NCBI GenBank assembly: GCA_032871835.1
Contig: CM065301.1
Span: forward strand, 82,594,278-82,658,277
Direction: 5' to 3'
Source: Dipteronia dyeriana
Taxonomy: Eukaryota; Streptophyta; Magnoliopsida; Sapindales; Sapindaceae
DNA: 64,000 nucleotides
Positions 26,140 through 64,000 of this stretch are shown piece after piece. The first letter of the stretch is position 1, and each line of letters opens with the position of its first letter. The notes below the pieces were generated by a model that made no database searches, was not told the DNA's origin, and saw nothing but the letters and a program-made list of their open reading frames with translations. The position numbers were made by a program, and so were the translations under genes.

Positions 26140-26140
26140 G

Positions 26141-34940: not shown

Positions 34941-36255
34941 TTATATTATATTAGATGTATAGTATTATATTAGAAGTAGAAGTAGAAGTAGAAGTACAAG
35001 TATACTATTAGAAATAGAAGTAGAATATTAAAGTATAATATTAGAAGTAGATGTATAATATTATACTAGAATTGGAAGTATAGTATTAGAAGTAGATATA
35101 TAAAGTTGATGTATAATATTACATTAAAAGTAGATGTATAATATTAGGAGGTAACTTTATTTCATTTTACTATTCTTTATTTAAATTTTTTAAAATTGTT
35201 TTTTAAGGTTGGGAGCTGAAGCAATAGCACTGCTGTAAAGTGTTGTAACTTTCTTTTAATTACTTTCTTATATTTTACGTTTTTAAATTGTTTTTTATGC
35301 TTGGAAGTGAGAGTGGGAGTGGTAGCTAAAGCATTGAGGTAACTTTTATTTTAAAATTTAAAAATTGTCTTTCAAACTAGGAAGTAGGGGTTGGAGCTGG
35401 GGCTGGAGCAGGAAAGAGAGCTGGAGCAAGATAATATTAGAAGTATTTGTATAATATTAGAAGTATAAGTATGAGTAGAAATATGATATTAGAAGTAGAA
35501 GTATAAAGTAGAAATAGAAGTAGAATATTAGAAGTAGAATATTAGACTTAAAGTATAATATTTGAAGTAGATGTATAATATTTGAAGTAGATGTATAATA
35601 TTAGAGGTAGAAGTATAATATTAAATGTATAATATTATATTTGAGGTAGATGTATAATATTATATCAGAAGTAGATGTATAGTGCTATAAGTAGAAGTAT
35701 AGTATTAGATGTATAATATTAGATGTAGATGTATAATATTATATTAGAAGTGGAAATATAATGTTAGAAATAGAAGTATAATATTAGAAATAGAAGTATA
35801 ATATTAAATGTAGATATATAATATTCAAGATAGATGTATAATATTATATTAAAAGTAGATGTATAATAATAGAAGTTGATGTATAAAGTAGAAGTATAAT
35901 ATTAAAAGTATAATGCTAGAAGTGGAAGTATAATATTAGCCGTATATGTATAATATTAGAAGTAAAAGTATACTATTAGAGGTAGATGTATAAATTAGAT
36001 GTATAATATTATATTAGAAATAAATGTATAATATTATAAGTAGAAGTAGAAGTAGAAGTAGAAGTAGAAGTATAATATTAAAAGAAAAATTATAATATTA
36101 GAAGTAGATGTAAAATATTAAAAGTAGAAGTATAATATTAGAAGTAGAAGTAGAAGTATAATATTAAAAGTATTAGAAGTAGATGTATAATATTAGAAGT
36201 ATTAGAAGTAGATGTATAAAATTAGAAGTAGAAGTATAATATTAGAGTGTAATAT
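34941..36255 (+). repeat. TATAATATTAGAAGTA minisatellite (left arm, blocks B1/C1/B2)
   Basis: Tandem variants of AGAAGTAGATGTATAATATT cover 34941-35150 and 35430-36255. A short island of the exon/intron-like satellite sits between them at 35150-35430. The same order (B2, C1, B1) appears reverse-complemented at 62581-64000, down to shared details such as GCTTGGAAGTGAGAG inside C1. Confidence 0.85.
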
Positions 36256-37248
36256 TTGCTGGGGGTAACTTTTATTTATTTTACTTTTTTAATAAAGTTG
36301 GGAGCGGGAGTGTTGTTAATTGTTTTTGTATTTTTTTTTTATTTTACTTTATTTTGTTTTATGTTTTTAAATTGTTTTTTAAGTTTGGGAGTGAGAGTGG
36401 AAGTATTGAGGTAACTTTCACTTTTTTATTTTATTATTTTTAAAAAAATATTTTTTAAGCTGGGAAGGTTAGAGCTGGAGCAGGATAAGGTGCGGAAGTG
36501 TTGTATTAATTTTTAATATTTTAAATTGTTTTAATGCTGGGGAGCTAGAGCTGAAGTGGGAGCGTTGAGGTAACTTTTTTTTTTCTACTTTGGTATTCTT
36601 TATGTTATCTCTTTTGAATTTGTTTTCCATGATAGTAAGTTGGTGCGGGAGCGGGAGCGGGAGCGCTGAGGTAATTTTTTTTTACTTTTCTAAAATTGTT
36701 TTTTAAGCTAGAAGGTGGGAGCAGGAGCGGGAACGAAAGCGTTGAGATAACTTTCTTTCCATTTATTTTATTTTATTTTACTTTTTCAAAATTATTTTTT
36801 AAAATTGATAGTACTTTTCCAAAATTGTTTTTTAAGCTAGGAGGTAAGTGTAGGAGCAGGAGCAGACACATGACGAAAGCGTTCAGGTAACTTTCTTTCC
36901 ATTTACTTTATTTTATTTTACTTTTTCAAAATTATTTTTTAAGATTGAGAGCGGGAGTGAGAGCGTTTTGGTAACTTTATTTTACTTTAATTTCATTTAC
37001 TTACTTTTTCTTTAAAAATGTTTTTTAACCTCGGGAGCGGGAGCAGACACGATAGCGAAAACGTTGAGGTAACTTTCTTTTACTTTACTTTCTTTTATTT
37101 TCCGTTTTTAATTTTTTTAATAAAATATTTTTTAAGCCTGAGAGCGGTAGCAGAATCGTTGATGTAACTTTCTTTTACTTAATTTTTTTATAATTTATTA
37201 AATTGTTTTTTAAGTTGGAGAGCTGGAGCGGTAGCAAGAAAGGGATTA
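36256..37248 (+). repeat. GGGAGC / GTAACTTT satellite (left arm, block C2)
   Basis: Units of about 90-110 bases each have two parts. A purine-rich GGGAGC block of 25-60 bases ends in (T/C)TGAG|GTAACTTT. Then 55-75 bases of T-rich DNA end in TTGTTTTTTAAG. The same family fills 41336-42110, 42811-42964, 43881-44630, 45262-46075, 47026-47544 and 48141-48555. On the opposite strand it fills 51434-52050, 52602-54780, 54946-55745, 61746-62580 and 63691-63912. No protein product is supported. Confidence 0.85.
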
Positions 37249-38021
37249 TGGCTTAGGGCTTAGGGCTTAGGGCTTAGTTCTCAGTTCTTAGTTTGACATT
37301 GTTTCCCCAGTTGCTTTTGGGGCCAAAAGTGATTCTGGACCTAAGACAATGTGTTTGGTAAAATCGCGAGAAAGTGCTTTTGGTCACTTTTAGCTTCTCC
37401 CAACTGAGTTTTTGAGAAACTACAAATACATGGATTTTAGCTTCTGCTTTTAGAAAACGTGCAACAATGATATTGAATGAAATTTTACTAACTTTCCAAC
37501 TTTGTCCTTGTCTTCAACGAAATTTAACAAAATTAAATTGGACTTATATTTATGTACAAAAAAAATGTTACCATAATTGTATAAAAAATGGGATAATTAA
37601 TTCAATAAAGTAGAATAAAAATCAAATAAAAAAATAAAGTAGAATAAAATAAAGAAATGAGGCTAATTAATTAAATAAGGTAGAATAAAAAAATAGGGCT
37701 AATTAATTCAATAATGTACCATAATTATATAACACTTAACACTTAACACTAAACACAAATAAACAAGAAAAATGTAAAGTATATCACATTAGTACCATTT
37801 AGTTGTCTATGTCATTTTAGTAATTTTACACACTTACAACACTTTTTATTTCAGTTTACCCAACACATTGAAATTGCTTTTAGTTCTCACAGCACTTTTG
37901 AAAATCATTTTACCAAACACTCAACTGATTCTTCCCACAACAATTCCAAAAGCAATTCCCTCCACAACAATTTCAAAAGCACTACTCCCCACAACACAAC
38001 AACAATGTCAAAGTGGGCCTA
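37249..38021. mobile_element. Insertion with CTTAGGG-like end and inverted TTTGACATTGTT
   Basis: Compared with the homologous segment at 59461-59475, which reads AGGGATTAGGAATTGC, this copy is split after AGGGATTA by about 770 bases ending GGGCCTA. The insert starts GGCTTAGGGCTTAGGGCTTA, then holds an inverted repeat, TTTGACATTGTT (37292) and AACAATGTCAAA (about 38001-38012). The interior has facing GTGTTTGGTAAAA and TTTTACCAAACAC. The TTA/CTA at the borders may be a 3-base target duplication. It is a non-coding, MITE-like insertion, class uncertain. Confidence 0.6.
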
Positions 38022-38224
38022 GGAATGGCATTACCATTGACATTAGGATTGAGATTGGGATTGTTTGCATTAGGATTAGGATTAGGATTAGGATTAGGGT
38101 TGTTTGGGATTGGGATATCTATCGGGATTGTTTGCATCAGGATTTGGATTATGTTTAACAAGAACGGGAGTGGGAGTGGGAGTGGGAGTGGAAGTGGGAG
38201 AGGGAGAGGGAGTTGGAGCTAGAG
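38022..38224 (+). repeat. GGATTA and GGGAGT hexamer arrays (block D)
   Basis: TTAGGATTAGGATTAGGATT-type repeats are followed by GGGAGTGGGAGTGGGAGTGG. A diverged copy in the same orientation is at 59469-59640. The GGG runs spaced by 3 bases meet the simple G-quadruplex pattern. Confidence 0.85.
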
Positions 38225-38590
38225 TTGGGGAAGTGTTTTTGTTCGATTCACTTATTACTTTTTTCGTTTACTTTTTCTAATATTTCTAGTACTATCAATT
38301 TCAGATGCAGGAGTACTTAAATTGAGCATTTTATCCATATGGATTTGGTAAGCTAAATTCTACTATTCGGGATAGGAAATCTCTGACCGTAGAACCAAAC
38401 AATTTAAATGTTTATTATGGAGTCGAGTACGTTTATTGTTGAGTTAAGCTTTTGGCACATATTCTAGTAGTATAGTTATTATATTTCTCAGCTTAGCAAT
38501 GGTTGACACTTGACAGTAGCATTTTTTAGGAGTAAGGGTTGAAGTAGGATTTGTAGGAGCAGGAGCAGGAGCATGAGGATTAGCAGGATG
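38225..38590 (+). repeat. Unique-sequence block E, first copy
   Basis: About 365 bases of complex sequence contain GTGTTTTTGTTCGATTCACT, TTTATCCATATGGA, GACCGTAGAACCAAACA and TTCTCAGCTTAGCAATGG. Copies are at 39365-39705 (+), 57546-57880 (-), 59641-59950 (+), 59985-60125 (- partial) and 61600-61745 (- partial). Because it is not simple sequence, it is the best marker for showing that the arms are duplicates. Confidence 0.85.
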
Positions 38591-39320
38591 ATTAGATTGC
38601 TTGCTTACTTGTTTATTTTGTGTGTATTTTAATTTTATTTAATGTGTGTGTTCCTTGCTTGCCTGCTTGCTTATTCTGCGTGTATTTTATTTTTATTTAG
38701 TGTTTGTTTGTGTTTTTGTGTATTGTTTGTTTGCTTTTTTATTTATTGTGTATATTTTACTTGTTTGCAGGCTTGTTTTGTGGGTGTGTTTATTTTAATT
38801 TTATTTATCGTGTGTATTTTGTTTACTTGCAGCAAGCAAGCTCGTTTATTTTGTCTGTATTTTATTTTTGTTTATTGTGTGCGTTTTGTTTGCTTGCTTG
38901 TATGTGTGCACTTGTTGTTTACTGTGTGTGTTGCTTGCTTGTTTACGTATTGTGTGTGTATCTTGCTTGCTTGCTTGCTTCCCTACTGTGTGTATGTGTT
39001 TTATTTTTCACTTGTTTATTGTTTTTTGCTTGCTTGCCTACTCTTTGTTTGTGTGTGTATCTTGATTGCTTATTTGTGTGTGGGTGCTTGTTATTTATTG
39101 TGTTTGTGTGTGTTTTATTTTTTTGCTTGCTTGCTTGCTTATTTTGTGTATCTTGCTTGCTTACTTATTATGTGTGTATCTTCCTTGCTTATTGTGTGTG
39201 CGTGTGTGTATATCATGTTTGTTTGCTTTCGTGTGTTTTTCTTGCTTGCTTATTGTGTGTGTATCTTGTCTGCTTGCTTGCTTATTGTTAGTTACTATGT
39301 GTGTGTGCGCGCGTGGTTAA
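38591..39320 (+). repeat. GCTTGCTTGCTTATTGTGTGTGTAT array (block F, left arm)
   Basis: Tandem GCTTGCTT plus ATTGTGTGTGTATCTT phrases. All three frames stay open for long stretches and read as Cys/Leu/Val-rich products (for example 227 codons at 38642-39325). Such simultaneous openness is a property of the repeat and not of a gene. Reverse-complement partners are at 57945-59045 and 60186-61575. Confidence 0.85.
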
Positions 39321-39364
39321 CATGAGCAATAATAAGATTAGGATTAGCTGTATTAGTAAGAGTT

Positions 39365-39705
39365 GGATTAGCACTCTCTAGAGCTAGGAATGTGTTTTTG
39401 TCATTTTCACTTTCTTGTTACTCTTTTGTGTTTACTTTTTCAAACATGTCTAGTATTGTCAAATTCAGGAGCAAGAGTAAGAGTACATGAATTGAACACT
39501 TTATCCATATGGACTTGGTAAGTTAAATACTTCTGTTTGAAGTAGGAAATCTATGACCGTAGAACCAAACATTTTATATGTTTATTGTATAGTAAAACAT
39601 ATGTTTATTGTTGAGCCAAGCTTTTGGTATACATTATAGTGGTATAGTTATTATAGCATTTCTCAGCTTTGCAATGCTTGACACATGATAGTTCTAATGG
39701 TAGGA
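39365..39705 (+). repeat. Unique-sequence block E, second copy
   Basis: Diverged copy of 38225-38590, including TTTATCCATATGGACTTGG, GACCGTAGAACCAAACA and TTTCTCAGCTTTGCAATG. Its closest partner by order is the minus-strand copy at 57546-57880. Confidence 0.8.
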
Positions 39706-39916
39706 GTAGGAGTAGGAGTAGGAGTAGGATTTTGATTTGTAGGATTTGTAGGAGCAAGATTCGGAGCTGGATCAAGAGCAGGAGCAAGAGCATGATGAGT
39801 AGGATGAGGATTAGGATTAGGATTAGGATTAGAATAATAGGATTGTTTGCCTTACGATTAGGATATTGTGATTATTTGTATTAGGATTAAGATTGTTAGG
39901 ATTATGATTAAGATTG
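39706..39916 (+). repeat. GGAGTA and GGATTA hexamer arrays
   Basis: GTAGGAGTAGGAGTAGGAGT, then TTAGGATTAGGATTAGG and diverged GATTAAGATTGTTAGG. The mirror partner is at 57270-57545. Confidence 0.8.
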
Positions 39917-39919
39917 TTA

Positions 39920-40082
39920 GGCCCCTTTTGGTGCATGAGATAGTATATGATTGTTTTTACTGGATTGGATAGGATTGGATGAGATTAATTTTAATGTTAT
40001 CATGTGTTTGGTGTAATATAGGATAGGATTAAAAATAGAGTAATCATGTGTTTGGAGTAACTTGGGATAGGATTAAAAATAG

Positions 40083-40132
<50 letters not shown>

Positions 40133-40754
40133 CATATATGATGTGAACATTTTACCAAAACCCATCAATTTTGTTTTCCTCTTTCATTCCTCATTTTTTC
40201 TTCCTCATCTTCTCATCTTCTCATCTTCTCTTTTCTCTTTCTCCGCGACAATAATATTGTCATCCAAGCACTTGGGTGACTCGCAATCAAGATTTCTTTC
40301 AAGCCATTTCTCAAGTTATATTATTAATTTATCAAAGAAAATTTGTTTGATTTGTGTGTTGATTTAGTTTATTGACTTAGGTGTTTGTGTAACCGATAGA
40401 ATTGGATCCTCTGTTCTTGTTTTTCATTTCTTTTACCTCCCTTGATCTGGCCTTGTTTTTGGTTGTGTTGTAATCTGTTTCTTGCTTTTCTTGTGAGGCA
40501 TCTTATGTTTGTGTTGTTTTGATGAGTGCTTCTTTGCTTTACTGGGTGCTTCTTACTTTTTGTAGACGATTGAATTTGGTAGTTGGTTCACAAGCAATCG
40601 GGAGAAGGAGAAGGGTGGGATTGTTTTATCCCATTGAAATGGGATAAAAGCACTATTAGGATTAATGTGAATCATATCCTATCGACGAGCCAAACACGGT
40701 AAAGGGACTAAAAATAATCCTTTTCTCATCCTATCTCAGCCGCCAAACGTGGCC
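39920..40754. mobile_element. PIF/Harbinger-like element, left-arm copy
   Basis: The termini GGCCCCTTTTGGTGC and (reverse complement) GGCCACGTTTGGCGGC flank 835 bases, with TTA on both sides (39917-39919 and 40755-40757). A 3-bp TTA duplication and GGCC..GTTTGG termini are typical of PIF/Harbinger-type non-autonomous elements. The interior has facing copies of a GGATAGGATT phrase, a (TA)n run (about 40086-40130) and no transposase. The same insertion occurs at the homologous site in the right arm. Confidence 0.8.
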
Positions 40755-40914
40755 TTAGGGTATTAGGATTAGGATCAAGATGTTTAGGATATTATGATTA
40801 GGATCAACATTAACCAAACTGTTGTCTGATTAACTTTACTGCAGATTATTTTTTTAGTGCAACTAACGATGATTATTTTAAAAGCTACACAATTATCAAA
40901 CTGACCTGTAGAAA
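40755..40914 (+). repeat. Unique-sequence block I (left arm)
   Basis: About 160 bases include CAAACTGTTGTCTGATTAAC and GATTATTTTAAAAGCTACAC. The reverse complement lies at 56226-56367 in the right arm with the same neighbours on both sides. Confidence 0.8.
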
Positions 40915-41335
40915 AGTATTAGAAGTAGAAGTAGAAGTAGAAGTAGAATATTGGAGGTAGAGGTAGAGGTAGAAGTAGAAAAGTAGAAAGTAGAAGTAGA
41001 TGTAAAAAAGTAGAGGTAGAGGTAAAATAGAAGAATAGTACGTAGAATAGTAGAGTAGAAGTAGAAGTAGAAGTAGAAGTAGAAGAGTATATTTAGAATA
41101 GTAAAGAAGTAGAAGTAATAATAAAATAGTAGTGGAATAGTGGCAGTGGAATAGTAGAAGTAGAAGTAGAAGTAGAAGTAGAATATTAGAAGTAGACTAT
41201 TAGAATTAGAAGTAGAATACTAGAAGTAGAAGTAGAATATTAGAAGTAGAATAATAGGAGAAAAAGTAGAATAAATAGAAGTAGAAGTAGAAGTAAAATG
41301 GGTAGATGTAGAAGTAGAATTAAAATATACAGAAG
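40915..41335 (+). repeat. AGTAGA hexamer array (left arm)
   Basis: Degenerate AGTAGAAGTAGAAGTAGA with AATAGTAG and ATATTAG interruptions. The mirror partner TCTACTTCTACT is at 55746-56225. Confidence 0.9.
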
Positions 41336-42110
41336 CTGCTCGGGAGCAGGAGTAGTAGCGGAAGTGTGAGGTAACTTTCTTTTCTTTTATTTATTTTTTA
41401 ATTGTTTTTTAAGCTGGGAAGCTAGAGTGGGAGCGGGAAAGGGAGCAGAAGCACTGCGTTAACTTTTTTTGTTTGCTTTATTTTATTTTATTTTATTTTA
41501 TTTTTAAATTGTTTTGTAAACTAGGGAGCTAGAGCGTTGAGGTAACTTTCTTTTAATTTGTTCTATTTTATTTTACTTTCTTTTATTTTACCTTTTTATT
41601 TTTTTATTTTTTTTTAAGATAGGAAACTGGAATGGGAGCGGGAGCGGGAGCAGGAGTGGGAGTGGGGCGGGAGCGTTGAGGTATCTTTATTTTACTTTAT
41701 TTTCTATATTTTTACTTTTTAAAATTGTTTTATAAGCTCGGGTGTGGGAGTAGGAGCGTTAGCAGAAGCGTTGATGTAACTTTTTTTTACTTTACTTTTA
41801 TTTTATTTTATTTTAATTATGTTTTAGGTTGAGGAGCTAGAGTGGGAGTGGGAGTGGGAGTGGGAAAGGTAGCGAAAGCGCTGAGGTAACTTTCTTTAAC
41901 TTTATTATATTTTAATTTTTTAATTTATGTTTTAAGTTGGCAAGTTGGTACGGGAGCGGGTGCGAGAGAGAGAGTGCTGAGGTAACTTTCTTTTACATTA
42001 GTTTATATTACTTTTCTATAATTATTTTTTAAGCCATGGAGGGGGAGTAGGAACGGAAGCACTGATGTAACTTTCTTTCAGTTTACTTTATTTTAGCTAT
42101 GGAGCTGGAG
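41336..42110 (+). repeat. GGGAGC / GTAACTTT satellite (left arm)
   Basis: Seven or eight units of the exon/intron-like satellite. Clear examples are GAGGTAACTTTCTTTT at about 41367, 41539, 41882 and 41979. One purine block, at 41636-41672, has many GGG runs. Confidence 0.85.
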
Positions 42111-42810
42111 CTGGTTATTTTTATTGTGTGCTTGTTTGTGTTTATGTTTATTTTTATTGTGTCGATGTATGTGTTTGTGTTTATTTTTATTTAGTATGTG
42201 TTTTTTTATGTTTATTTTTATTTAGTGCGTACGTGCATGTGTGTATTTGTATTCATTTTTATTGTATGTATGTTTGTGTTTATTTGTAGCACGTGCGTGT
42301 ACGTGTTTTATTGTGTGTTTATTTTTATTCATCGTGCGTTTGTGTTTCTTTTTAGTGCGTGCATGTTTGTTTGTATTTATTTTTTAATGTTTATGAGTGC
42401 GTTTATTTTTTATTGTGTGGGTATGTTTATGTTTATTTTTACTTAGTTCGTGTGTCCATGTATGTATTTGTATTACGTGTTTGTATTTTTGTGTTTATTT
42501 TTAATGCGTGCATGATATGTTTGGGTGGTGTGTGCGTGCGTGTGTTTATTTTTATTTATTGTTTGTTTATTTTTATTTAGTTTTTACGTTCGTGTGTACA
42601 TGTATTTATTTTTATTGTGTATGTGTTTATTTTCAATGTGTGTGCGTTGCCTGCTTGTGTGTGTGGCGTGTTTGCATAGCATGCGTGCGTGTGTTTTATA
42701 TTTATTGTGTGTTTGTATTTATTTTTATCTAGTGTGAGCATGTGTTTATTTTTAGTGTGCATGTGCATGTTTGTGTTTTAATTTTATTGAGTGCGTGAGA
42801 CAATCTTTTT
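42111..42810 (+). repeat. TTTATTTTTATTGTGTGTTTG array L1
   Basis: Degenerate tandem phrases of the type GTGTTTATTTTTATTTAGTG, GT-rich on the + strand. All frames are largely open by chance. The right arm has no comparable block at the matching place (about 54946), so this array expanded in the left arm or was lost on the right. Confidence 0.8.
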
Positions 42811-42964
42811 TTACTTTACTTTCTTTTATTTTACTTTTTTAAAATTGTTTTTTAAGATAGGAAGCATGAGCGTTGTGGTAACTTTCTTTTATTTTTATTT
42901 TACGTTTTTTTTAAAATTGATTTTTAAGCTGGGAAGCTAGAGCGGGAGCGGCTAGGGAGGTAGA
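42811..42964 (+). repeat. GGGAGC / GTAACTTT satellite, single units
   Basis: One to two units of the exon/intron-like satellite between GT-rich arrays, with TTGTTTTTTAAGATAGGAAG and GTGGTAACTTTCTTTT. Confidence 0.75.
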
Positions 42965-43380
42965 GCGTGCGTGCGTTTATGTTTATTTTTAGTACATGCA
43001 TGTATGTGTGTGTTTTTGTATGTGTTTGTGTTTATTTTTGTTTTGTTCGTGTATGCATGTGTGTATTTGTATTTATTTTTATTGTGTTTTGAGTTATTTT
43101 TTGCCCGTGTTTATGTGTTTGTATTTATTTTTAATGTGTGCATTGCGTGCGTTGCCTGATTAAGTGGTGTGCATAGCGTGCATGTGTGTTTTAGTGTGTT
43201 TATGTTTATTTATTTTGTGTATGTGTGTGTGTGGGATTTAGTGTGTGCGTCTGTGTGTATTTGTATATAATTTTATTTTCTGTTTGTGTTTATTTTTAGT
43301 GTGTGTGCGTTTGTATTTGTGTTTAATTTTATTGCGTGTGTGGCGTGTTTGCGTGGCAAGCATATTGTGCTTGCTTGCTT
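42965..43380 (+). repeat. GT-rich array L2
   Basis: Same family as 42111-42810. It ends in GCTTGCTTGCATGCGTT at the border of an inserted element. Confidence 0.75.
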
Positions 43381-43389
43381 GCATGCGTT

Positions 43390-43776
43390 AGAGGTGTCAA
43401 CGGTTCGGTTAAATCGTTCAAAACCGAACCGAAACCGTTCATCTAAAACTGTAACCGAAATCGAAACGTAACAATCGGTTACGAAACCGGTTTTCCGACG
43501 GTTCGATTACGGTTATCCTTCCCTAAAAACCGTTTCAAAACCGTTTCAAAACCGGCTTTATGTATAAAAAGATCAACCAATAGTATTGTGACACGTGACA
43601 ATTCGTTTGAAAAAAAAACTGGCTGTAACGAAACCAAACCGTAACCGCCCAACTTCGGTTATGGTTACGGTTACAGTTAGTTTTTTCCACGGAAACGAAA
43701 ATGGAACCGGAACCGGAACCATAACCAGCAGTTTGTAACTGAAACCGAACCCGAACCCGAACAGTGGACACCTCTA
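43390..43776. mobile_element. Inverted-repeat element rich in GGTTCGG/CCGAAC (left arm)
   Basis: Perfect 9-base inverted ends, AGAGGTGTC and GACACCTCT, enclose about 387 bases with facing CGGTTACGG/ACCGTAACC phrases. The flanks GCATGCGTT (43381-43389) and GCGTGCATT (43777-43785) match at 7 of 9, consistent with a worn 9-bp target duplication of Mutator type. A truncated partner lies in the right arm at 54781-54945. It belongs to the same general class as the 620-bp element at 19925. Confidence 0.65.
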
Positions 43777-43785
43777 GCGTGCATT

Positions 43786-43880
43786 GATGTGTGTTTTATT
43801 GTGTGTTTATTTTTTTTATTGTGTGTTTGTTTGTTTATATTTATTGTGTGTTTTTGTTTATTTTTAGTGCGTGTGTGAGA
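43786..43880 (+). repeat. GT-rich array remnant
   Basis: Continuation of array L2 after the inserted element (GTGTGTTTATTTTTTTTATT). Confidence 0.7.
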
Positions 43881-44630
43881 TAATTTTCTTTTACTTTTCT
43901 TTCTTTAATTTTTTTAAAATGTTTTTTTAATCTAGGAAGCAGGGGCGGGTGCGTTTAGGTAAAATTGTTTTTTAAGATAGGGAGTGAGAGTGCTGCGGTA
44001 ACTTTCTTTTACTTTATTTTATTTTAATATTTTTAAAATGTGTTTTAATCTAGGAAGCAGGGGCGGGTGCGCTGAGGTAATTTTCTTTTACCTTATTTTC
44101 TTTTATTTTACTTTTTAAAAATTGTTTCTTAGGCTTAGCAACAGGAGCGAGTGGGAGTGGGAGTGGGAGTGGGAGCGGAAGAGTTGATGTAACTTTCTTT
44201 TACTTTACTTTACTTTATTTTATTTTAATTTTTTTAAAATTGTTTTTTAAACTGTGGAGCTGGAGCGGAGCGATGAGGTAACTTTCTTTTACTCTATTTT
44301 ATTTTAATTTTTTAAAATTGGTTTTTAAGATAGGGAGCTGGAGCTAGAGTGCTGAGATAACTTTCTTTTACTTCGTTCTCTTTTATTTTACTATTTTATT
44401 ATTTATTTTTTTTTAATTTGTTTTTTTTTAGCTAGTTAGTTGTCACGGAAGCAGGAGCGTTGTAGTAACTTTCAATTATTTTACTTTATTTTATTGAACT
44501 TTTCTAAAATTGTTTTTTATGTTATGGAATTGGAGCGGAAACGGAATCGCTGAGGTAACTGTATTTCACTTTACTTTCTTTTATTTTACTTTATCAAAAT
44601 TATTTTTTAAGATGGGGAGCGGTAGCGGGA
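43881..44630 (+). repeat. GGGAGC / GTAACTTT satellite (left arm)
   Basis: About eight units. The stretch around 44480-44630, including GATGGGGAGCGGTAGCGGGA, aligns in reverse with 53990-54120 in the right arm. Confidence 0.85.
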
Positions 44631-47544: not shown

Positions 47545-47552
47545 ATTGGGAG

Positions 47553-48132: not shown

Positions 48133-48140
48133 ATTGGGAG

Positions 48141-51427: not shown

Positions 51428-51433
51428 CTCATG

Positions 51434-52050: not shown

Positions 52051-52058
52051 CTCCCAAT

Positions 52059-52593: not shown

Positions 52594-52601
52594 CTCTCAA
52601 T

Positions 52602-54780
52602 CTTAAAAAACCATTTAAAAAAAGTAAAATAAAGAAAATTAATGTGAAAAAAAATTACCTCAGCGCTTCCATTCCCGGTCCCTAACTTAAAAAACAATTT
52701 TGAGAATATTAAATAAAATAAAGTAAAAGAAAGTTAACTCAGCGCTCAAGCTCCCCAGCTTAAAAACCAGTTAAAAAAATTAAAATAAATGAAAGTAAAT
52801 TATAATAAAGTTACCTTAACGCTTTCGTTACCGCTTCAACTCCCAAGCTTATTTTTTTTTTAAAATGTAAAATTAAAGACAGTAAAGTAAAAAAATGTTA
52901 CCGCAGCGCTCCGGCCCTCACTCCTGCACACGCTCGCTACGCACGCAGGTAACTCAAGCACGCATGCATTACAAATAAACACAAACACACACCCACACAA
53001 TAAAAATAAACACAAAGAAAAACACAATAAAAATAAACAGCTCTAACTCTAGCTTCCTAACTTTAAAAAGTAAAAAAAAAAAAAAAGTAACCACATCGCA
53101 TCCGCTCCCGTATCAGCACCCCAGCTTATTTAAAAAAAAAAGTAAAGTAAAAAAAAAATTACCTCAGCGCTTTCGTTCCCGATCTCTATCTCGAAAAACA
53201 ATTTTGATAAAGTTAAAAAAAAAATAGTTACCCCAAAGCTTCCGATCCCACCCCTTTTCCAGCTCTTCAGAATAAAAAAAACAATCCAAAAAGGTAAAAT
53301 AAAAGTAAATTATAAGAAAGTTACCTCATCGGTTCTGTTCCCACTCTCGTGTCTACTTCTACTCCTGCTCCTACTCCCGTGCAAGCTTCCTTGCTTAAAA
53401 ACATTTTTTTAAAAAAAGTTAAATAAAAGAAATTAAAGTAAAAGAAAGAAACCCCAACGCCCCCACTCTAGCTCCACATCTTAAAGAATTTTAAAAACTA
53501 AAATTAAAAAAGTTATCCAAATGCTTTCGTTCCCGCTCCCTAGATTAATAAATAATTTTGAAAAAGCAAAAATAAAACAAAGTAACAAAAAAAAAAGTTA
53601 CCTCAACGCTCGCACTCCCGCTTCCTAACTTAAAAAAATTAAAATAAACGATAGTAAAATAAAATAGAACAAAGTAAAAGAAAGTCACATCAACGTTCCC
53701 GCTTCTGCTCCTACTCCCTAAAATAAAAAAAACAATTTAATATAAAATAAAATAAAATAAAAGGAAGTTACCTAAACGCTTCTGCTCATGATCCTGCTCC
53801 TGAACTTAAAAAATAATTTTTAAAAAGTAAAATTAAAAAAAGGTAAGTAAAATAAAATTACCTCAACGCTCCTGCCCCAACTCCCGGGCTAGTATCCTAG
53901 CTTAAAAAAATATTTTTAAAAAAGTAAAAGAAAAGAAAATAAAGTAAAAGGAAGTTAAAATAAGTAAAAGAAAAGAAAATAAAGTAAAAGGAAGTTACTG
54001 TAGCGCTCCCGTTCCCCATCTTAAAAAATAATTTTAAAAAAGTATAATAAAAGAAAGTAAAGTGAAATAAAGTTACCTCAGTGCTTTTATTCCCGCTCCA
54101 TAGTATAAAAATCAATTTTAGAAAAGTAAAATAAAATAAAGTAAAATAATTGGAAGTTACTACAACGCTCCTGCTATCGTGACAACTTCGTAGCTAAAAA
54201 AATAAATTAAAAAAAGAAAAATTAAATAGTAAAATAAAAGAGAACGAAGTAAAAGAAAGTCACCTCAGTGCCCCAGCTCCAGAAAAACCAATTATAAAAA
54301 ATTAAAATAAAATAAAGTAAAAGAAATTTACCTCAGTGCTTCCTCCCTAACTCCATAGCTTAAAAAACAATTTTAAAAAATTAAAATAAAAGAAAGTAAA
54401 GTAAAAGAAAGTTACCGCTTCCGCTTCCGCAACCACTCCCACTCCCACTCCCACTCCCACTCCCACTCTCGCTCCCCTTCATGTGCCTAAAAAACAATTT
54501 AAAAAAAGTAAAATAAATGAAAATAAGGTATAAGAAAATTACCTCAACACACCTACCCCTACTTCTTAGATTAAAACACATTTAAAAAAAAGTTAAATAA
54601 AATAAAGTAAAAGAAAGTTACCACAGCGCTCCCGTTCCCTATCTTAAAAAACAATTCTGAAATAGCAAAATTAAAGAAAGAAAAGTAAAAGAAAATTATC
54701 TCACGCACACTAAAAATAAACAAAACACACTATAATTATAAACAACCAAACACACAATAAAACACACATCCACGCACGAT
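52602..54780 (-). repeat. GGGAGC / GTAACTTT satellite (right arm)
   Basis: About twenty units on the minus strand. 52945-53040 holds the short partner of GT-rich array L3. The empty target of the left-arm solo LTR is at about 53998-54022 (GCGCTCCCGTTCCCCATC). 54690-54780 is a short partner of the GT-rich arrays. Confidence 0.85.
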
Positions 54781-54945
54781 AGAGGTGTCCACGGTTAGGT
54801 TTCGATTACAAACTACCGGTTATAGTTTCTGTTCCGGTTCCGGTTCCGTGGAAAGACCTAATCGTAATCGTAATCGTAATTGTAACCGTAACCGTAACCG
54901 TAACCGTAACCGTAACCGTAACCTTAACCAGAGTATGACGGTTAT
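54781..54945. mobile_element. Truncated GGTTCGG-type element with CGTAAC expansion (right arm)
   Basis: It begins AGAGGTGTCCACGGTTAGG and tracks the reverse complement of 43390-43776 (GTTCCGGTTCCGGTTCCGTG). It then runs into CGTAATCGTAATCGTAAT and CGTAACCGTAACCGTAAC hexamers and stops, without the other end. Confidence 0.65.
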
Positions 54946-55745
54946 GCTCCAGCTCCATTGCTTAAAAAAGAATTCAACAAATTAAAATAAAATAAAGTAA
55001 ACTGAAAGAAAGTTACCTCAGTGTTTCCGTTCCCGCTCCCGCTCCCGCTCCATGGCTTAAAAAATAATTTTAGAAAAATAATTTTAGAAAAATAATATAA
55101 AGTAAAGTAAAGTAAAAGAAAGTTACCTTAGCGATCTCGTTCTCGTTCTCTCTCTCACCCGCTCTTGCACCAACTCCCCAACTTAAAACACAAGTTAAAT
55201 AATAATAATAATAATAATAATAATAAAGTTAGAGAAAGTTACCACAACGCTTTCATTACCTTTCTCACTCCCGCTCCAGCTCCCCAACCTAAAAAATAAT
55301 TAAAAATAAAATAAAATAAAATAAAATAAAGTAAAGTAAAAAAAAAAGTTACATCAACGCTTCAACTCCCGCTCCTGAACTTATAAAACAATTTTTAAAA
55401 GTAAAAATATAGAAAGTAAATAAAGTAAAATAAAGATACATCAACGCTCCCGCTCCCACTCCCGCTCCTGTGTCAGCTTCTATCTTAATTTTTTTTTTTA
55501 AATTAAAAAGGTAAAATAAAAGAGGACAAAGTAAAAGAAAATTACCTCAACGCTCTAACTCCCCAGCTTACAAAACAATTTAAAAATAAAATAAAATAAG
55601 TTAACGTAGAGCTTCCGCTCCCTTTCTCGCTCACTCTAGCTTCCCAGCTTAAAAAACAATTAAAAAAATTAAATTAAAAAAATTAAAATAAAAGAAAGTT
55701 ACCTCAACACTTCCCTACTGCTCCTGCTCCTGCTCCCGCTCCCGA
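54946..55745 (-). repeat. GGGAGC / GTAACTTT satellite (right arm)
   Basis: Partner of 41336-42110. It includes an (AAT)n run at about 55199-55226 and a CTCCTGCTCCTGCTCCCGCT stretch at its outer end. Confidence 0.85.
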
Positions 55746-56225
55746 GCTACTTCTGCATATTATAATTCTACTTCTACATCTACCTATTTTACTTCTACTT
55801 CTACTTCTATTTATTATACTTTTTCTAATACTTCAAATATTCTACTATTCTACTTCAACTTCTACTTCTAATATTCTACTTCTACTTCTACTTCTACTTC
55901 TACTATTCTGCTTCTAATCTTCTACTATTCTAATAATCTACTTCTACTTCTACTTCTAGTATTCTACTACTAATTCTAATAGTCTACATCTAATAATCTA
56001 AATCTCTAATATTCTACTTCTACTTCCACTATTCCACTATTCCACTATTCCACTATTCTACTATTCTACTTCTGCTCTACTATTACTATTCTATAATTAC
56101 TTCTACTTCTACGTTTACATCTACTTCTCTACTTCTTTACTATTCTGCATATACTCTTCTACTTCTACGTCTACTCTACTACTTCTCTACTATTCTTCTA
56201 TTTTACCTATACCTCTACTTTTCTA
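55746..56225 (-). repeat. TCTACT hexamer array (right arm)
   Basis: Partner of the AGTAGA array at 40915-41335, with CTATTCCACTATTCCACTAT variants. Confidence 0.9.
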
Positions 56226-56367
56226 ATGGTGTAGCTTTTAAAATAATCATTGTTAGCTGTGTTAAAAAAATAATATACAGTAAAGTTAATCAGACAACAG
56301 CGTGGTTAATGATGATCCTAATCCTAATCCTAATATCCTAAACATCTTGATCCTCATCCTAATACCA
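56226..56367 (-). repeat. Unique-sequence block I (right arm)
   Basis: Contains GTGTAGCTTTTAAAATAATC and GTTAATCAGACAACAG, the reverse complement of 40755-40914, ending next to the Harbinger-like copy as in the left arm. Confidence 0.8.
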
Positions 56368-56370
56368 TAA

Positions 56371-57266
56371 GGCCACGTTTGGCAACTGGGATAGGATAGG
56401 AAAAGGATTATTTTTAGTCCCTTTCCTATGTTTGGCTCGTCGATAGGATAGGATTCAAATTAATCCTAACAGTGCTTTTATCCCATCTCAATGGGATAAA
56501 ACAATCTAACCAAAATGATGGGATTCATTTGAATCCCATCTATGTCCTTCGTCTCATCATCCTTTTCTTTCGTTGAAACTGTATCATCATCATCTTCTTC
56601 TTCTTCTCCCAATTGCTTGTGAATCAACTACCAAATTCAATCGATTTAAAAAAAAACGTAAGATGCACCCAGTCAAGCCAAGAAGCACCCATCAAAACAA
56701 CACAAACATAAGATGCCTCACAAGAAAAGCAAGAAACAGATTACAACAAAACCAAAAACAAGGCCAGAACAAGGGAGGTAAAAGAAATGAAAAACGAGAA
56801 CAGAGTGTCCAATTCTACCGATTACACAAACACCCAAGTCAATTAACTAAACCAACACCCAAATCAAACGAATTTTCTTTGATAAATTAATAATATAACT
56901 TGAGAAATGGCTTGAAAGAAATCTTGATTGCAAACCACCCAAGTGCTTGGATGACAATATTATTGTCGTGGAGAAGGAGAAGGAGAAGAGAGAAGAAGAG
57001 AAGATGAGGAAGAAAAAACAAGGAATGAAAGAATAAAACAAAATTGATGGGTTATGGTAAAGTATTTGCATCATATCTGATCAAATATATATATATGTAT
57101 AATCTATTTTTAATCATATCTCAAGTTACACCAAACACAAGATTACTCTATTTTAAATCTTATCCTATATTACATCAAAAACAAGATAACATTAAAATTA
57201 ATCTCATCCAATCCTATCCAATCCAGTAAAAATAATCCTATACTATCTCATGCACCAAACGGGGCC
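56371..57266. mobile_element. PIF/Harbinger-like element, right-arm copy
   Basis: Reverse-complement partner of 39920-40754, starting GGCCACGTTTGGCAACTGG and ending TGCACCAAACGGGGCC. TAA lies on both sides (56368-56370 and 57267-57269), the reverse complement of the left arm's TTA. It keeps shared interior phrases such as CAAGTGCTTGGATGAC (left arm, CATCCAAGCACTTGG) and differs in the length of its TA tract. Confidence 0.8.
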
Positions 57267-57269
57267 TAA

Positions 57270-57545
57270 CAATCTTTATCTTAATTCCTAATCCTAATTC
57301 AAATCCTTACAATCTTAATCCTAGTGCAAATAATCCCAATATCCTAATCATAAGGCAAACAATCATATTATTCTAATCCTAATCATAATCCTAATCTGAA
57401 CCTTAATGTTAATCTTAATCATAATCCTAATCCTAATGTTAATGCTCATCCTACTCATCCTGCTAATCATACTGCTCTTGATCCAGCTCTAGCTTTAGCT
57501 CCGAATCCTGCTCCTACAAATCAAACTCTTACTCCTACTCATATT
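57270..57545 (-). repeat. TAATCC / TACTCC hexamer arrays (right arm)
   Basis: Partner of 39706-39916, with diverged CCTAATCCTAATC and ACTCCTACTC strings. Confidence 0.75.
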
Positions 57546-57880
57546 CCTACCATTATACCTGTCATGTGTCAAGCATTGCAAAGCTGAGAAATTCTATAAT
57601 AACTATACCACTAGAATATGTACCAAAAGCTTGGCTCAACAATAAACATATGTTTTACTCCACAATAAACATATAAAATGTTTGGTTCTACGGTCAGAGA
57701 TTTCCTACCTCAAACAGAAGTATTTAACTTACCAAGTCCATGCGGATAAAGTGTTCAATTCATGTACTTTTGCTCTTGCTCCTGAATTTGACAATACTAG
57801 AAATGTTAGAAAAAGTAAACGGAAAAGAGTAATAAGAAAGTGAAAATGACAAAAACACTTCCCCAGTTCTAACGAGTGCC
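57546..57880 (-). repeat. Unique-sequence block E (right arm)
   Basis: Contains TTGCAAAGCTGAGAAATTCT, TGGTTCTACGGTCAGAG and CAAGTCCATGCGGATAAA, the reverse complement of block E at 39365-39705. Confidence 0.8.
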
Positions 57881-57944
57881 AATCCAACTCTTGCTAATAC
57901 AGTTAATCCTAATCCTGTTATTGCTCATGCTAACCGTACGCACA

Positions 57945-59045
57945 TACACAGAGTAACTAACAATAAGCAAGCAAGCAAACAAGATACACACACAATAAGA
58001 AAGCAAGAAAGGCATGAAAGCAAACAAGCACACACAATAAGTAAGCAAGATACACATACATAATAAGTAAGCAAGCAAGATACACAATAAGCAAGCAAGC
58101 AAGCAAGCAAAAAAATAAAACACACACACAATAAATAACAAGCGCCCACACATAAGTAAGCAAGCAAGATACACACACAAAAAATGGGAAGGCAAGTAAG
58201 CAAGATACACAAATAATAATCAAGCAAGATACACACAATAAGTAAGCAAAAAATTAAACACATACACAAAAAAAGCAAACAAGATACACACACAATAAGC
58301 AAGTGAAAAAATAAAACACATACACACAATAGAGAAGTAAGCAAGCAAGATACACACACGGTAAACAACAAGTGCACACATACAAGCAAACAAGCAAAAT
58401 ACATAATAAATAACAAGCACACACTTAAGTAATCAAGCAAAATACACAATAAATAACAAGCGCACACACAAAAGCAAGCAAGCAAAATAAACATAAACAA
58501 AACAAGCAAACAAGCAAGCTAGTCCGCACAATAAATAACAAGCGCACACAAACACACACAAGCAAGCAAACAAGCAAAATATACACAATAAATAGCAAAC
58601 GCACACACACAAAAGCAAGTAAGAAATATACACATACAAACAATAAAGCAAGGAAGAAAGCAAGCAAGCAAAATATACACAATAAATAAAATAATATAAT
58701 ACACAGACACATGCAATAAATAAGCAAGCTAACTAGCAAGTAGCAAAACACACAATAAATAAGCAAGCAAGCAAGCAAAACGCACACAATAAACAAAAAT
58801 AAAATACACACAATAAACGAGTTTGCTTGCTTTAAGAAAACAAAATACACACAATAAATAAAGTTAAAATAAACACACACAAAACAAGCCTGCACACCAA
58901 CAAAATACACAATAAATAAGAAAGCAAGCAAACAAAACACAAAAACACACAAACACTAAATAAAAATAAAATACACAGAAAAAGCAAGCAGGCAAACAAG
59001 GAACACACATTAAATAAAATTAAAATACACAAAATAAACAAGCAA
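57945..59045 (-). repeat. AAGCAAGCAAG / ATACACACACAATA array (block F, right arm)
   Basis: Reverse-complement partner of 38591-39320, about 370 bases longer. Long minus-strand open frames here (194 and 175 codons, among others) are Cys/Leu-rich by-products of the repeat. Confidence 0.85.
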
Positions 59046-59071
59046 GCAAGCAACCGAATCATCCAGCTCCA

Positions 59072-59292
59072 GCTCCAGCTCAAGCTCCAGCTCAAGCTCA
59101 AGCTCAAGCTCAAGCTCAAGCTCAAGCTCAAGCTCAAGCTCAAGCTCAAGCTCAAGCTCAAGCTCAAGCTCAAGCTCAAGCTCAAGCTCAAGCTCAAGCT
59201 CAAGCTCAAGCTCAAGCTCAAGCTCAAGCTCAAGCTCAAGCTCAAGCTCAAGCTCAAGCTCAAGCTCAAGCTCAAGCTCAAGCTCAAGCTCA
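59072..59292 (-). repeat. AGCTCA (AGCTTG) hexamer array, near-perfect
   Basis: About 36 almost identical AGCTCA hexamers, far more uniform than any neighbouring array, so recent expansion is likely. The minus strand reads as an alternating Ser-Leu run from an ATG at about 59293. It has no counterpart in the left arm. Confidence 0.95.
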
Positions 59293-59955
59293 TAACTATA
59301 CCACTAGAATATGTACCAAAGACTCAACAATAAACGTACTCTTGACTCCATGATAAATAACGAAAGCGTTGAGAGCGTCGAGGTAACTTTTTTTTACTTT
59401 ATTTTTTTTATAATTTATTAAATTGTTTTTAAAGCTACAGAGCTAGAACCGTGGCAGGAAAGGGATTAGGAATTGCATTGCCGTTGGTATTAGGATTGAG
59501 ATTGAGATTGTTTGCACTAGGATTAGGATTAGGGTTGTTTGGGATTGGGATATGTATCGGGATTGTTTGCATCAGGATTTGGATTAGGTTGAACGGGAAC
59601 GGGAACGGGAACGGGAGCGGGAGTTGGAGTTGGAGCTAGAGTTGGGGAAGTGTTTTTGTTCTATTCACCTCTTATTACTCTTTTCGTTTACTTTTTTAAA
59701 TATTTCTAGTATTATCAATTTCAGGTGTAGGAGTACTTAAATTGAGCACTTTATCCACATGAACTTATTAAGCTAAATACTACTATTCGGGATAGGAAAT
59801 CTAACCGTAGAACCAAACAATTTATATGTTTATCATGGAGTCAAGAGTACGTTTATTGTTGAGTCTTTGGTACATATTCTAGTGGTATAGTTATTATAGT
59901 ATTTCTCAGCTTTGCAACAGTTGACACTTGACAGTAGTATTTTTGAAGAGCAGGG
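59293..59955 (+). repeat. Left-arm-like segment in direct orientation
   Basis: After a short minus-strand block-E piece (59293-59345), 59345-59955 repeats the left-arm series C2 end, D and E in the same orientation as 37150-38530, not inverted. It lacks the 770-base insert (AGGGATTAGGAATTGC at 59461). The CGGGAACGGGAACGGGAACG run at about 59596 is a simple G-quadruplex pattern. Confidence 0.8.
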
Positions 59956-60125
59956 GTTGGAGGCCTGCTCCTGCTCCTGCTCCTGCTCCATGTGGATAAA
60001 ATGCCAAGTCCATGTGGATAAAATGCTTAATTCATGTACTCTTGCTCTTGCTCCTAAATTTGACAACACTAGACATGTTTGAAAAAGTAATAAGTGAAAA
60101 TCACCAAAACACTTCCTCAGCACTA
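59956..60125 (-). repeat. Small palindrome centre and partial block E
   Basis: Orientation flips again at GGTTGGAGGCCTGCTCC (about 59957-59973). The plus-strand block E before it is followed by minus-strand block E (TCCATGTGGATAAAATGC twice, then CTAAATTTGACAACACTAG). Confidence 0.7.
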
Positions 60126-60185
60126 ACGAGTGCTAATCCAACTCTTGCTAATACAGCTAATCCTAATCCTGTTATTGCTCATGCT

Positions 60186-61575
60186 AACCGCACACGCACA
60201 CACGCGCACACACACACAGAGTAACTAACAATAAACAAGCAAGCAAACAAGATATACACACAATAAGCAGACAAGAAAGGCACGAAAACAAACAAACAAA
60301 ATATACACACAAACACAATAAGCAAACAAGCAATATATACATACATGTGCACACAATAAGCAAGCGAGATACACACATAATAAGTAAACAAGCAAGATAC
60401 TCACAATAAGAAAGCAAGCAAGCAAAAAAATAAAACAAACACAAACACAATAAATAACAAACGCCCACACACAAGTAAGCACGCAAGATACACACACACA
60501 AACAATGGGTAGGCAAGCAAGCAAGATACACAAATAATAAGCAAACAAGATACACACAATATGCAAGCAAGCAAGCAAGCAAAAAATTAAACACACATAC
60601 ACAATAAACAAGTGAAAAAACAAAACACATACACACAATAGGGAAGCAAGCAAGCAAGATACACACAATATGCAAGCAAGCAACACACACGGTAAACAAC
60701 AAGTGCACACATACAAGCAAACAAGCAAAATACATAAGACAATCAAGTAAAATAAACACAAACAAAACAAGCAAACAAGCAAGCCAGTCCACACAAGAAA
60801 GCAAGCAAACAAAATATACACAATAAATAACAAACGCACACACACACAAGCAAGCAAGAAATATACACATACACACAATAAAGCAAGGAAGAAAGCCAAC
60901 AAACAAAATATACACAATAAATAAAAAAATAAAATATTGACACATGCAATAAATAAGCAACCTAACTAGGAAGATGTAAAACACACAATAAATAAACAAG
61001 CAAGCAAGCAAAAAAGCAAAATACATAAAGCAAGCAAGTAAAATAAACACAAACAAAACAAGCAAACAAGCAAGTCAGTCCACACAATAAATAACAAACA
61101 CACACAAACACACAAAAGAAAGCAAGCAAGCAAATTATACACAATAAATAACAAACGCGCACACACACAAGCAAGAAATATACACATACACAATAAAGCA
61201 AGGAAGAAAGCAAGTAAGCAAAATATACACAATAAATAAAAGAATAAAATACACAGACATGCAATAAATAAGCAAGCTAACTAGCAAGCAGCAAAACACA
61301 TACAATAAATAAACAAGCAAGCAAAACGCACACAATAAACATAAATAAAATACACATACAATAAACGAGCTTGCTTGCTGCAAGCAAACAAAATACACAC
61401 AATAAATCAAATTAAAATAAACACACCCACAAAACAAACCTGCAAACAAGCAAAACACAAAAACACACCAACACTAAATAAAAATAAAATACACTTAGAA
61501 TAAGCAAGCAGACCAGCAAGGAATACACACATTAAATAAAATTAAAATACACAAAATAAACAAGCAAGCAATCTA
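60186..61575 (-). repeat. Second block F array of the right arm
   Basis: The same GCAAGCAAG/ACACACAATA family as 57945-59045. The longest minus-strand frame here, 293 codons (61065-60184), is an artefact of the repeat, since other frames over the same bases are open too (230 and 107 codons). Confidence 0.85.
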
Positions 61576-61745
61576 ATCATCATGCTAATCCTCATGCTCC
61601 CGCTCTTACAAATCCTACTCCAACCTTTACTCCTTAAAAATACTACTGTCAAGTGTCAACCATTGCAAAGCTGAGAAATACTATAATAACTATACCACTA
61701 GAATATGCACCAAAAGTTTGACTCAACGATAAACGTACTCTTGAC
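61576..61745 (-). repeat. Partial block E (right arm)
   Basis: Contains GTCAACCATTGCAAAGCTG and ACTATACCACTAGAATATG. It joins the inverted C2 satellite directly, so block D and the rest of E are missing here. Confidence 0.75.
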
Positions 61746-62580
61746 TCCCGCTCCCAGGTTTAAAATTTTTTTTATTAAAAACATAAAATAAAAGAAAATA
61801 AAGTAAAAGAAAATTACCTTAACGTTTCAGCTACTGTTTCTGCTCCCGCTCCCGAGCTTAAAAAATATTTTTAAAGAAAAAGTAAGTAAATGCAATTAAA
61901 GTAAAATAAAGTTACAGCAGCGCTCCCACTTCTACTCTCAATCTTAAGAAATTATTTTAAACAAGTAAAATAAAATAAAGTAAATAGAAAGTTACCTCAG
62001 CGTTTTCGTTCCCGCTCCCGCTCCTGCTCCCACCTCCTAGCTTAAAAAACAATTTTGAAAATGTAATATAAAATAAAGTAAAAAAAAAAAAAATTACCTC
62101 GGCACTCCCTCTCCCTCTCCCTCCCCTCCCCTCTCCTCTCCTCTCCTCTCCTCTCCTCTCCAGTCCAGTCCAGCTCCCGCACCAACTTCCTATCATGGAA
62201 AACAAATTCAAAAGAGGTAAAATAAAAGGGACCAAAGTTAAAATAATAATAAAAAAAAAACAATTTACCTCAACGCTCCCGCTTCAACTCCAGCTTCCTA
62301 GCATAAAAACAATTTAAAATATTGAAGATTAAAACAGCGATTCCGCACATTTTCCGGCTCAAGCTCCAACATTCCAACTGTGAAAACAATTTTTTTTTTT
62401 TTTTTTTTAAAAAAAAGTAAAAGTAAGTTACCACAATACTTCCCCGCTCCCAAACTTAAAAAACAATTTAAAAACATAAAACAAAAGAAAGTAAAACAAA
62501 AGAATTACAAAAACAATTGGCATCACTCACGCTCACAACCTTATTAAAAAAGTAAAATGAAAGAAAATTACCCTAACTAA
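61746..62580 (-). repeat. GGGAGC / GTAACTTT satellite (right arm, block C2)
   Basis: Partner of 36256-37248. A CTCTCCTCTCCTCTCCTCTC tract at about 62128-62161 is a local expansion. Confidence 0.85.
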
Positions 62581-63690
62581 TATTACACTCTAATATTGTA
62601 CATCTACTTCTAATATTATAATTTTACTTTTAATATTATACTTCTACTTCTAATTCTAATAGAATATTATAATATAATATTATACATCTCCTTGTAATAT
62701 AATATTATACATCTACTTTATACATATAATATTATACTTCCACTTCTAATATTATACATCTACTTCTAGTATTATACTACTTCAAATATTTTACATCTAC
62801 TTCTAAATAATTTTACTTTTAATAGTATACTTCTACTTCTACTTCTGCTATCACTTTCAATACTATACACTTCTAATATAATATTATAAATCTAATTTAT
62901 ACATCTACTATTAATATTGTACTTCTACTTCTACTTCTAACATTATACTTTTAATATTGTACTTCTATTTTATATATCTACCTATAATATTATACTTCCA
63001 ACTTATAATATTATAAATATACTTTTAATATAATATTATACATCTACTTTTAATATTATACTTCTATTTTATATATCTACCTCTAATATTATACTTCAAC
63101 TTATAATATTATAAATCTACTTTTAATATAATATTATACGTCTACTTTTAATATTATACTTCTACTTCTAATATTATACATCTGCTTCTAATATAATATT
63201 ATACTACTACTTTATACCTCTACCTCTAATATTATACATCTACTTGTAATATTATAAATCTAATACTATACTTCTACATCTACTTCTAATATAATATTAT
63301 ACATCTACTTTATACATCTACCTCTAATATTATACTTCAATTCTATTATTATACATCTACTTTTAATATAATATCATATATCTATCTCGAATATTATGCA
63401 TCTACATTTAATATTATACTTCTATTTCTAATATTATACTTCTAATATTATATTATACATCTACTAATATTATAAATCTAATAATATACTTCTACTTCTA
63501 CTACTATACATCTACTTCTAATACAATATTATTCATTTAATTCTAATATTATACATCTAATATAATACCTCTACCTCAAATATTATACATCTAATTCAAA
63601 TATTATACTTTATGTCTAATATTCTACTTCTACTTCTACTTTTAATATTATACTTCTACTTTTAATATAATACAAATACTTCTAATATTA
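62581..63690 (-). repeat. TAATATTATACATCTACTTC minisatellite (right arm, block B2)
   Basis: Reverse-complement partner of 35430-36255. Confidence 0.85.
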
Positions 63691-64000
63691 TCTTGCTCCA
63701 ACTTAAAAACAATTTTTAAAAATTAAAATAAAAGTAAAAGTTACCTCAATGCTTCCTCTACCACTCCCGCTCTCACTTCCAAGCATAAAAACAATTTTAA
63801 AACGTAAAATATAAGAAAGTAAAGTAAAAGAAAGTTACCGCAGTGCTCCCGCTCCCAACCTTAAAAAACAATTTTAAAAAAGTAAAATAAATAATAGTAA
63901 AATGAAAGAAAGTAACCCCCAACTAATATTATACTTCCACTTTTAATATTATACATCTACTTCTGCTTTTACTTTTACTTCTAATATAATATTATACATC
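63691..64000 (-). repeat. Right-arm blocks C1 and start of B1, cut by the window end
   Basis: 63691-63912 is the reverse complement of 35150-35430, with the same variants (CTCTCACTTCCAAGCATAAA). 63913-64000 returns to the TATAATATTAG family, as 34941-35150 does. The palindrome therefore continues past the window. Confidence 0.8.

Follow-up and report, generated by a model that had tools for sequence, protein, structure and literature searches.

The last 64,000 bases of pseudochromosome C7 of Dipteronia dyeriana (C7:82594278-82658277; hereafter the window, with positions counted from its first base) contain a large imperfect palindrome of satellite-rich blocks. A search of the plant's own genome placed the last base of C7 at 82658277, so the window stops at the end of the pseudochromosome. 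The assembly comprises 914 Mb in 78 contigs, with C1 to C9 being chromosome-sized (76-123 Mb).

Mirror order of the C7 end

Comparison of the window with its own minus strand yielded a collinear chain of antiparallel blocks that joins a proximal arm (34954-48553) to a distal arm (51666-64000), the latter reaching the last base. The paired blocks are 35431-37150 with 63507-61745, 38593-40613 with 58735-56597, 40619-42095 with 56506-54988, 43659-44627 with 54879-54004, 45262-45738 with 54010-53535, and 47198-48553 with 52929-51666. In the best chain, 8,423 of the 13,613 bases of the left side (34941-48553) aligned with 8,374 of the 12,573 bases of the right side (51428-64000); identity was 76.5% counting gaps and 86% ignoring them. 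Chained antiparallel, the two sides scored 8,220, against 1,403 in parallel, and shuffling the right side in 1-kb blocks gave a mean score of 4,734 and a maximum of 6,652 (n = 60). The left arm was also cut into 55 tiles of 300 bases, and the best other match of each within the window was taken. Such a match was present for 52 tiles and absent for 3; it lay at the mirror position on the opposite strand for 37 tiles and elsewhere for 15, including 9 in the tile's own arm. The first-pass annotation, made from the letters of the window, had proposed an imperfect palindrome of about 29 kb with mirrored block order, and the chain, the shuffles, and the tile matches bear this out. Inverted arms flank a short spacer, and this mirror structure is real, reflecting neither chance likeness of satellites nor a fold-back read.

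The arms and 2.9-kb spacer of that annotation needed correction: the arms hold numerous one-sided gaps and insertions, a block within the distal arm (59376-59962) is inverted, and the spacer spans 48554-51665, with its portion at 51427-51665 still consisting of arm satellite. The inverted block is a small local inversion, and the corresponding C6 arm keeps the uninverted order. Outward of the paired part, the proximal arm continues into a region whose mirror partner falls past the contig end on C7 and is present at C6:10001-15.4 kb. The GATGTA array belonging to this region was found at its predicted place in the sister arm on C6 (window 34192-35150 matches C6:15091-16231).

Both arms carry, in one and the same target site, an element that we take to belong to the hAT family. 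It occupies the same place on C6 and C1, where the target copies are partly mutated, while a query with it gave no match in either the C4 end or the initial 10.8 kb of the C8 copy described below. Its presence in the same target of both arms implies that the insertion is older than the arm split. Together with the collinear mirror order, this shared site upholds the earlier preference for an inverted duplication over chance likeness of simple repeats.

At the center, 48,554-51,405 consists of two dispersed repeats lying side by side (Table 1). One is a caulimovirid-like fragment whose open reading frame (ORF) matches the viral movement protein family PF01107 (E 3e-13) and which recurs in at least 36 other genomic places at 84-95% identity. 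The other recurs in at least 3 further places at 89-90% and partially matches the C6 spacer at 90%; the genome search with the central repeats scored 40 of 7,239 candidates. C1 passes through the point corresponding to the center without either repeat. We take both to be later insertions that hide the original junction.

The insertion at 44628-45261, confined to the left arm, has at least 73 further matches at 90-98%, which often come in twos and threes at intervals of about 1.2-1.3 kb, and appears to resemble a miniature long terminal repeat (LTR) retroelement family. Within the window, Rfam at gathering scores and an ARAGORN tRNA search gave no match.

Several features lie proximal to the paired arms. 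An apparent 5' gene fragment at 30410-31680, with a short ORF starting MAATLPLL as read by eye, belongs to the subtelomeric unit of C1, C6, C7, C8, and the unplaced contig C65. Degenerate GGGCTTA repeats resembling plant telomere units occupy 18654-22397 and are also present in the flanks of C1 and C6. Toward the centromere from the shared region, 2722-4491 holds an intact ORF of a cationic amino acid transporter; the protein is 97% identical to Dipteronia sinensis and Acer proteins, and a paralog at C6:30.6 Mb is 89% identical. A decayed transposase region with a SWIM zinc finger, presumably of the MuDR/FAR1 family, lies at 5900-9100.

Table 1. Features of the palindrome and its proximal flank in window coordinates
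Feature	Position	Strand	Basis
Proximal flank, partly common with C6 (96% at 14.5-17.95 kb, 94% at 21.6-28.3 kb)	14500-34000	+	C6 comparison
Outer part of proximal arm (gene-fragment and GATGTA-array region)	30090-34940	+	C6 comparison
GATGTA array	34320-34940	+	Sequence
Left (proximal) palindrome arm	34954-48553	+	Self-comparison, chaining
Block I, dispersed element of about 0.7 kb common to both arms (right-arm copy within 56597-57396)	39920-40613	+	Genome comparison
LTR-like insertion (TG...CA ends), left arm only, absent from right	44628-45261	+	Genome search, chaining
hAT-like element, left arm, 8-bp target duplication ATTGGGAG (47545-47552, 48133-48140)	47553-48132	+	Sequence
Caulimovirid-like fragment, dispersed repeat at center (ORF matching PF01107)	48552-49825	-	Domain and genome search
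Second dispersed repeat at center	49823-51405		Genome search
GGGAGC satellite, extending distal arm beyond its paired part; also on C1 and C6	51427-51665	-	C6/C1 comparison
Right (distal) palindrome arm, reaching last base of pseudochromosome	51666-64000	-	Self-comparison, chaining, contig end
hAT-like element, right arm, same target site (ATTGAGAG/ATTGGGAG)	52059-52593	-	Sequence
Block in left-arm orientation inside right arm	59376-59962	+	Self-comparison, C6 comparison

Copies and single units at other assembly ends

The start of C6 holds the palindrome turned round, at about 10-64 kb from the C6 start, the first 10 kb of C6 being N; together with the proximal flank, the two arms take up C6:10-85 kb. 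The distal arm with its outer continuation corresponds to C6:10.0-33.4 kb and the proximal arm to C6:49.5-63.7 kb; identity over the main arm blocks is 78-96% with gaps counted, and the spacer measures 16 kb on C6 against 3 kb on C7. Blocks of homology between the two ends begin no later than window position 14.5 kb and run to 63.8 kb, which fits a subtelomeric duplication, where homology would extend from one breakpoint to the chromosome end; a comparison of window positions 1-5.6 kb with the C6 end gave no match. Inverted pieces in the C6 spacer (C6:34136-41555) had suggested a still larger palindrome there, which we rejected: they are flanked by 253-bp direct repeats and have homologs in the proximal flank and on C1, and we read them as a likely retroelement insertion.

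Elsewhere, the unit occurs in other arrangements. The C1 end has a part resembling the proximal flank, a poor inverted-arm remnant (about 70%), and a single full arm that extends to the end of the contig; it is collinear with the C6 spacer plus proximal arm. A suspected 110-bp terminal satellite at the C1 end proved, by eye, to be a short duplicated stretch of gene fragment. The C4 end has one arm, with 0 inverted among the 40 self-matches listed. At 72.42 Mb, C8 contains an interstitial direct-repeat version that gave no inverted self-match at E 1e-20.

The block E satellite of the arms was located on C1, C4, C5, C6, C7, and C9 within 136 kb of assembly ends. The exceptions among the candidates scored (40 of 409, hence a lower bound) are C8 at 72.4 Mb and C9 at 77.2 Mb, which lie 3.8 and 1.1 Mb from an assembly end. 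The region preceding the GATGTA array has copies at the ends of C1, C4 (both), C6, C7, and C9, at 72.42 Mb on C8, and on contig C65, and not on C5; the remaining matches of this query stem from a dispersed element, about 0.4 kb long, that lies at the right side of the query. Homologous blocks are thus present near the ends of several nonhomologous chromosomes (C1, C4, C5, C6, C7, and C9, the ends of C5 and C9 being covered in part or through search matches), apart from C65 and the interstitial places on C8 and C9. The interstitial copies, made up of end-linked satellite or of pieces of the unit (C8:72.38-72.44 Mb and C9:77.23-77.27 Mb), are possibly relics of former chromosome ends or misplaced contigs.

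At the C5 end, copies of the E satellite are opposed 8-10 kb apart, which made a third palindrome centered on the GGGAGC satellite a candidate, yet no such mirror was found. Besides the C array and the next E copy, the 7.5 kb between and into the opposed copies holds a tandem repeat with a unit of about 744 bp (C5:108828501-108836000, 3924-6122), present in about 3 copies at 89% between the opposed end-satellite units.

Telomere-like sequence is scarce at the assembly ends. Among the 18 pseudochromosome ends, 6 begin with N, 11 have no telomere array in the terminal stretch inspected, and only the left end of C9 shows telomere-like units (12 CCCTAAA units among CCCGAAT-like variants in C9:1-1500). 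The same end holds the subtelomeric unit at 95 and 136 kb. Genome-wide, four-unit TTTAGGG matches number 441.

Arm history and origin

Eight blocks could be aligned across the arms. Ungapped, arm and arm are 86.1% identical on C7 and 86.5% on C6, while across chromosomes the proximal arms are 93.6% and the distal arms 94.7% identical. The tree unites the C7 and C6 proximal arms and, separately, the C7 and C6 distal arms, with 100% support, and pairing of arms within chromosomes is rejected (approximately unbiased [AU] test, p = 9e-51). At 342 of the 363 two-against-two sites the sequences group according to arm; 5 sites group them according to chromosome and 16 crosswise. The tree, the test, and these sites show that the palindrome is older than the C6/C7 split. 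Arms kept alike by gene conversion would be near 99% identical; these are at 86%, and there is no sign of arm-to-arm conversion since the split.

A rough dating by hand from tree distances, at the rate of Acer pentaphyllum (4.66e-9 per site per year in the part of the source available; PMC11891484), gives about 15 million years for the arms and about 6 for the C6/C7 split; the slower nonsatellite flank gives about 6 and about 2. Ages of 6-15 million years for the arms and 2-6 for the split may hold as orders of magnitude only. The description of the palindrome as unstable finds no support here, as the structure has lasted long enough for its arms to diverge.

We consider it probable that the C7 end is one of two copies, on C6 and C7, of an old and diverged inverted pair of repeat blocks, which likely arose once by reversed joining of subtelomeric blocks and was later probably copied whole between ends. 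Mirror order, positions at assembly ends, pairing of arms across chromosomes, blockwise C6/C7 homology, and the lack of arm homogenization are direct observations; the steps behind them would be as follows. One subtelomeric unit would have been joined to another in reverse, via inversion or ectopic exchange inside GGGAGC-type satellite, as suggested by the single and direct-repeat units elsewhere (C1, C4, and C8) and by the best tree, which places the C1 arm with the proximal arms (bootstrap 99% in one tree and 87% in another). A copy of the whole end would then have passed between C6 and C7; a terminal exchange, for instance break-induced replication, would be the simplest route, and the homology running nearly to the assembly end points to it. 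Dispersed repeats inserted at the center would have covered the original junction, and the structure is now presumably passive and decaying, with no function of its own. That the left end of C9, which bears the unit, begins with telomere-like CCCTAAA units argues for this subtelomeric reading.

Several points weigh against this account. The proximal, distal, and C1 arms split in roughly a three-way star: AU values are 0.87 for C1 with the proximal arms, 0.16 for the two arms as sisters, and 0.016 for C1 with the distal arms, and the flank alone leaves their order open. A simple fold-back origin may therefore be compatible with the near-star tree. The palindromes of C6 and C7 are terminal only as assembly ends, telomeres being mostly missing from the assembly. 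C6 might also represent an alternative haplotype of the C7 end that was misplaced, a possibility disfavored by 2-6% divergence and by the 16-kb and 3-kb spacers; were it so, the palindrome would stay intact and the copying story would shorten.

A single fold-back duplication of the neighboring sequence, by sister-chromatid fusion after breakage or by template switching, with the C1 arm copied later, is a possible if rather unlikely origin. The AU test does not reject a tree in which the two arms are sisters and C1 falls outside them (p = 0.16), a root that nests C1 among the proximal arms would also fit later copying to C1, and the hAT-like and I insertions are common to all these arms. The collinearity of C1 with the C6 spacer plus proximal arm, in turn, fits separate pre-existing units, and no clean breakpoint is left in a center made of later insertions. 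As to the breakage-fusion or fold-back origin first suggested, age disfavors a recent event and leaves an older one as possible. Another rival is a giant fold-back transposon, its inverted repeats 13 kb long, that transposed to C6 and C7. It would account for two inverted-arm copies and several single-arm copies, and we regard it as very unlikely: sharp ends with target duplication in unrelated flanks would be expected, whereas the C6/C7 homology extends in blocks about 15 kb past 30 kb on the proximal side and the copies are concentrated at chromosome ends; the distal end is unassembled. No target duplication was seen at an arm end, though no systematic search was made.

The palindrome sits in satellite DNA at the end of a contig, a setting in which assemblies fail, and this invites the suspicion of a mirror image created by a fold-back read or a false join. 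Fold-back read artifacts yield near-identical arms, while these differ by about 14% plus many indels, and C6 has the palindrome again, around another spacer and with the same differences specific to each arm, which makes an artifact extremely improbable. The concern over an assembly join, for which long reads had been advised, is largely answered without reads by the substitutions between arms and the second copy with its own spacer. In favor of a chance resemblance among unordered satellites of low complexity stand the cross-matching of simple repeats and the 15 of 52 matched tiles that fit best elsewhere. This reading is refuted by the collinear order, with an antiparallel score that exceeds both the parallel one and all 60 block shuffles, and by the common insertion site, so that its probability is negligible.

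More speculatively, the inverted pair might be a transmissible chromosome-end module, copied whole between nonhomologous ends, its diverged arms and central insertions blocking folding and conversion, with mirror ends recurring on C6, C7, the C1 remnant, and the opposed units of C5 and C9. We consider this reading doubtful.

Comparison with known systems

Large inverted repeats are usually either fresh and unstable or homogenized by gene conversion. In the present case the arms, each 13 kb or longer, have diverged by 14% at two chromosome ends, with no exchange between arms seen after the copies split. Breakage-fusion-bridge cycles likewise leave an inverted duplication at a chromosome end, whereas the present one is old, lies on two chromosomes, and retains no surviving junction. 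Fold-back transposons share long inverted arms made of tandem repeats; in contrast to them, no defined ends or whole-element target duplication were seen here, and homology runs past the arms. Literature searches on subtelomeres, inversions, palindromes, and plants listed no shared subtelomeric palindrome of this kind, a weak negative.

The palindromes of sex chromosomes are large inverted repeats as well. According to the accessible parts of the reports on the primate X (PMC8981503) and the willow W (PMC7023750), their arms are mostly more than 99% identical through gene conversion. For willow, the available text describes palindrome W.P1 as having arms of 20 kb, with a spacer given as 2.6 kb in the text and as 3,586 bases in a table, and arms 3b/4b as 96-99% identical (PMC7023750). 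The arms studied here, in contrast, are about 86% identical, and no inter-arm conversion is seen after the C6/C7 split. In the portions available, satellite-rich blocks at the ends of nonhomologous chromosomes are likewise reported for potato subtelomeres, where sequence is exchanged between such ends (PMC3276127), and for the khipu satellite of bean (PMC3797529). The shared unit here differs in being an inverted pair with a single origin and arm-specific divergence, which those portions do not describe.

The C6 and C7 ends offer a natural case for studying when palindromes escape conversion and deletion and how plant subtelomeres swap material, and they indicate that satellite-rich contig ends of scaffolded assemblies can contain real, old inversions. 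Set beside these systems, the structure appears to combine the shape of a sex-chromosome palindrome with the behavior of an exchanging plant subtelomere.

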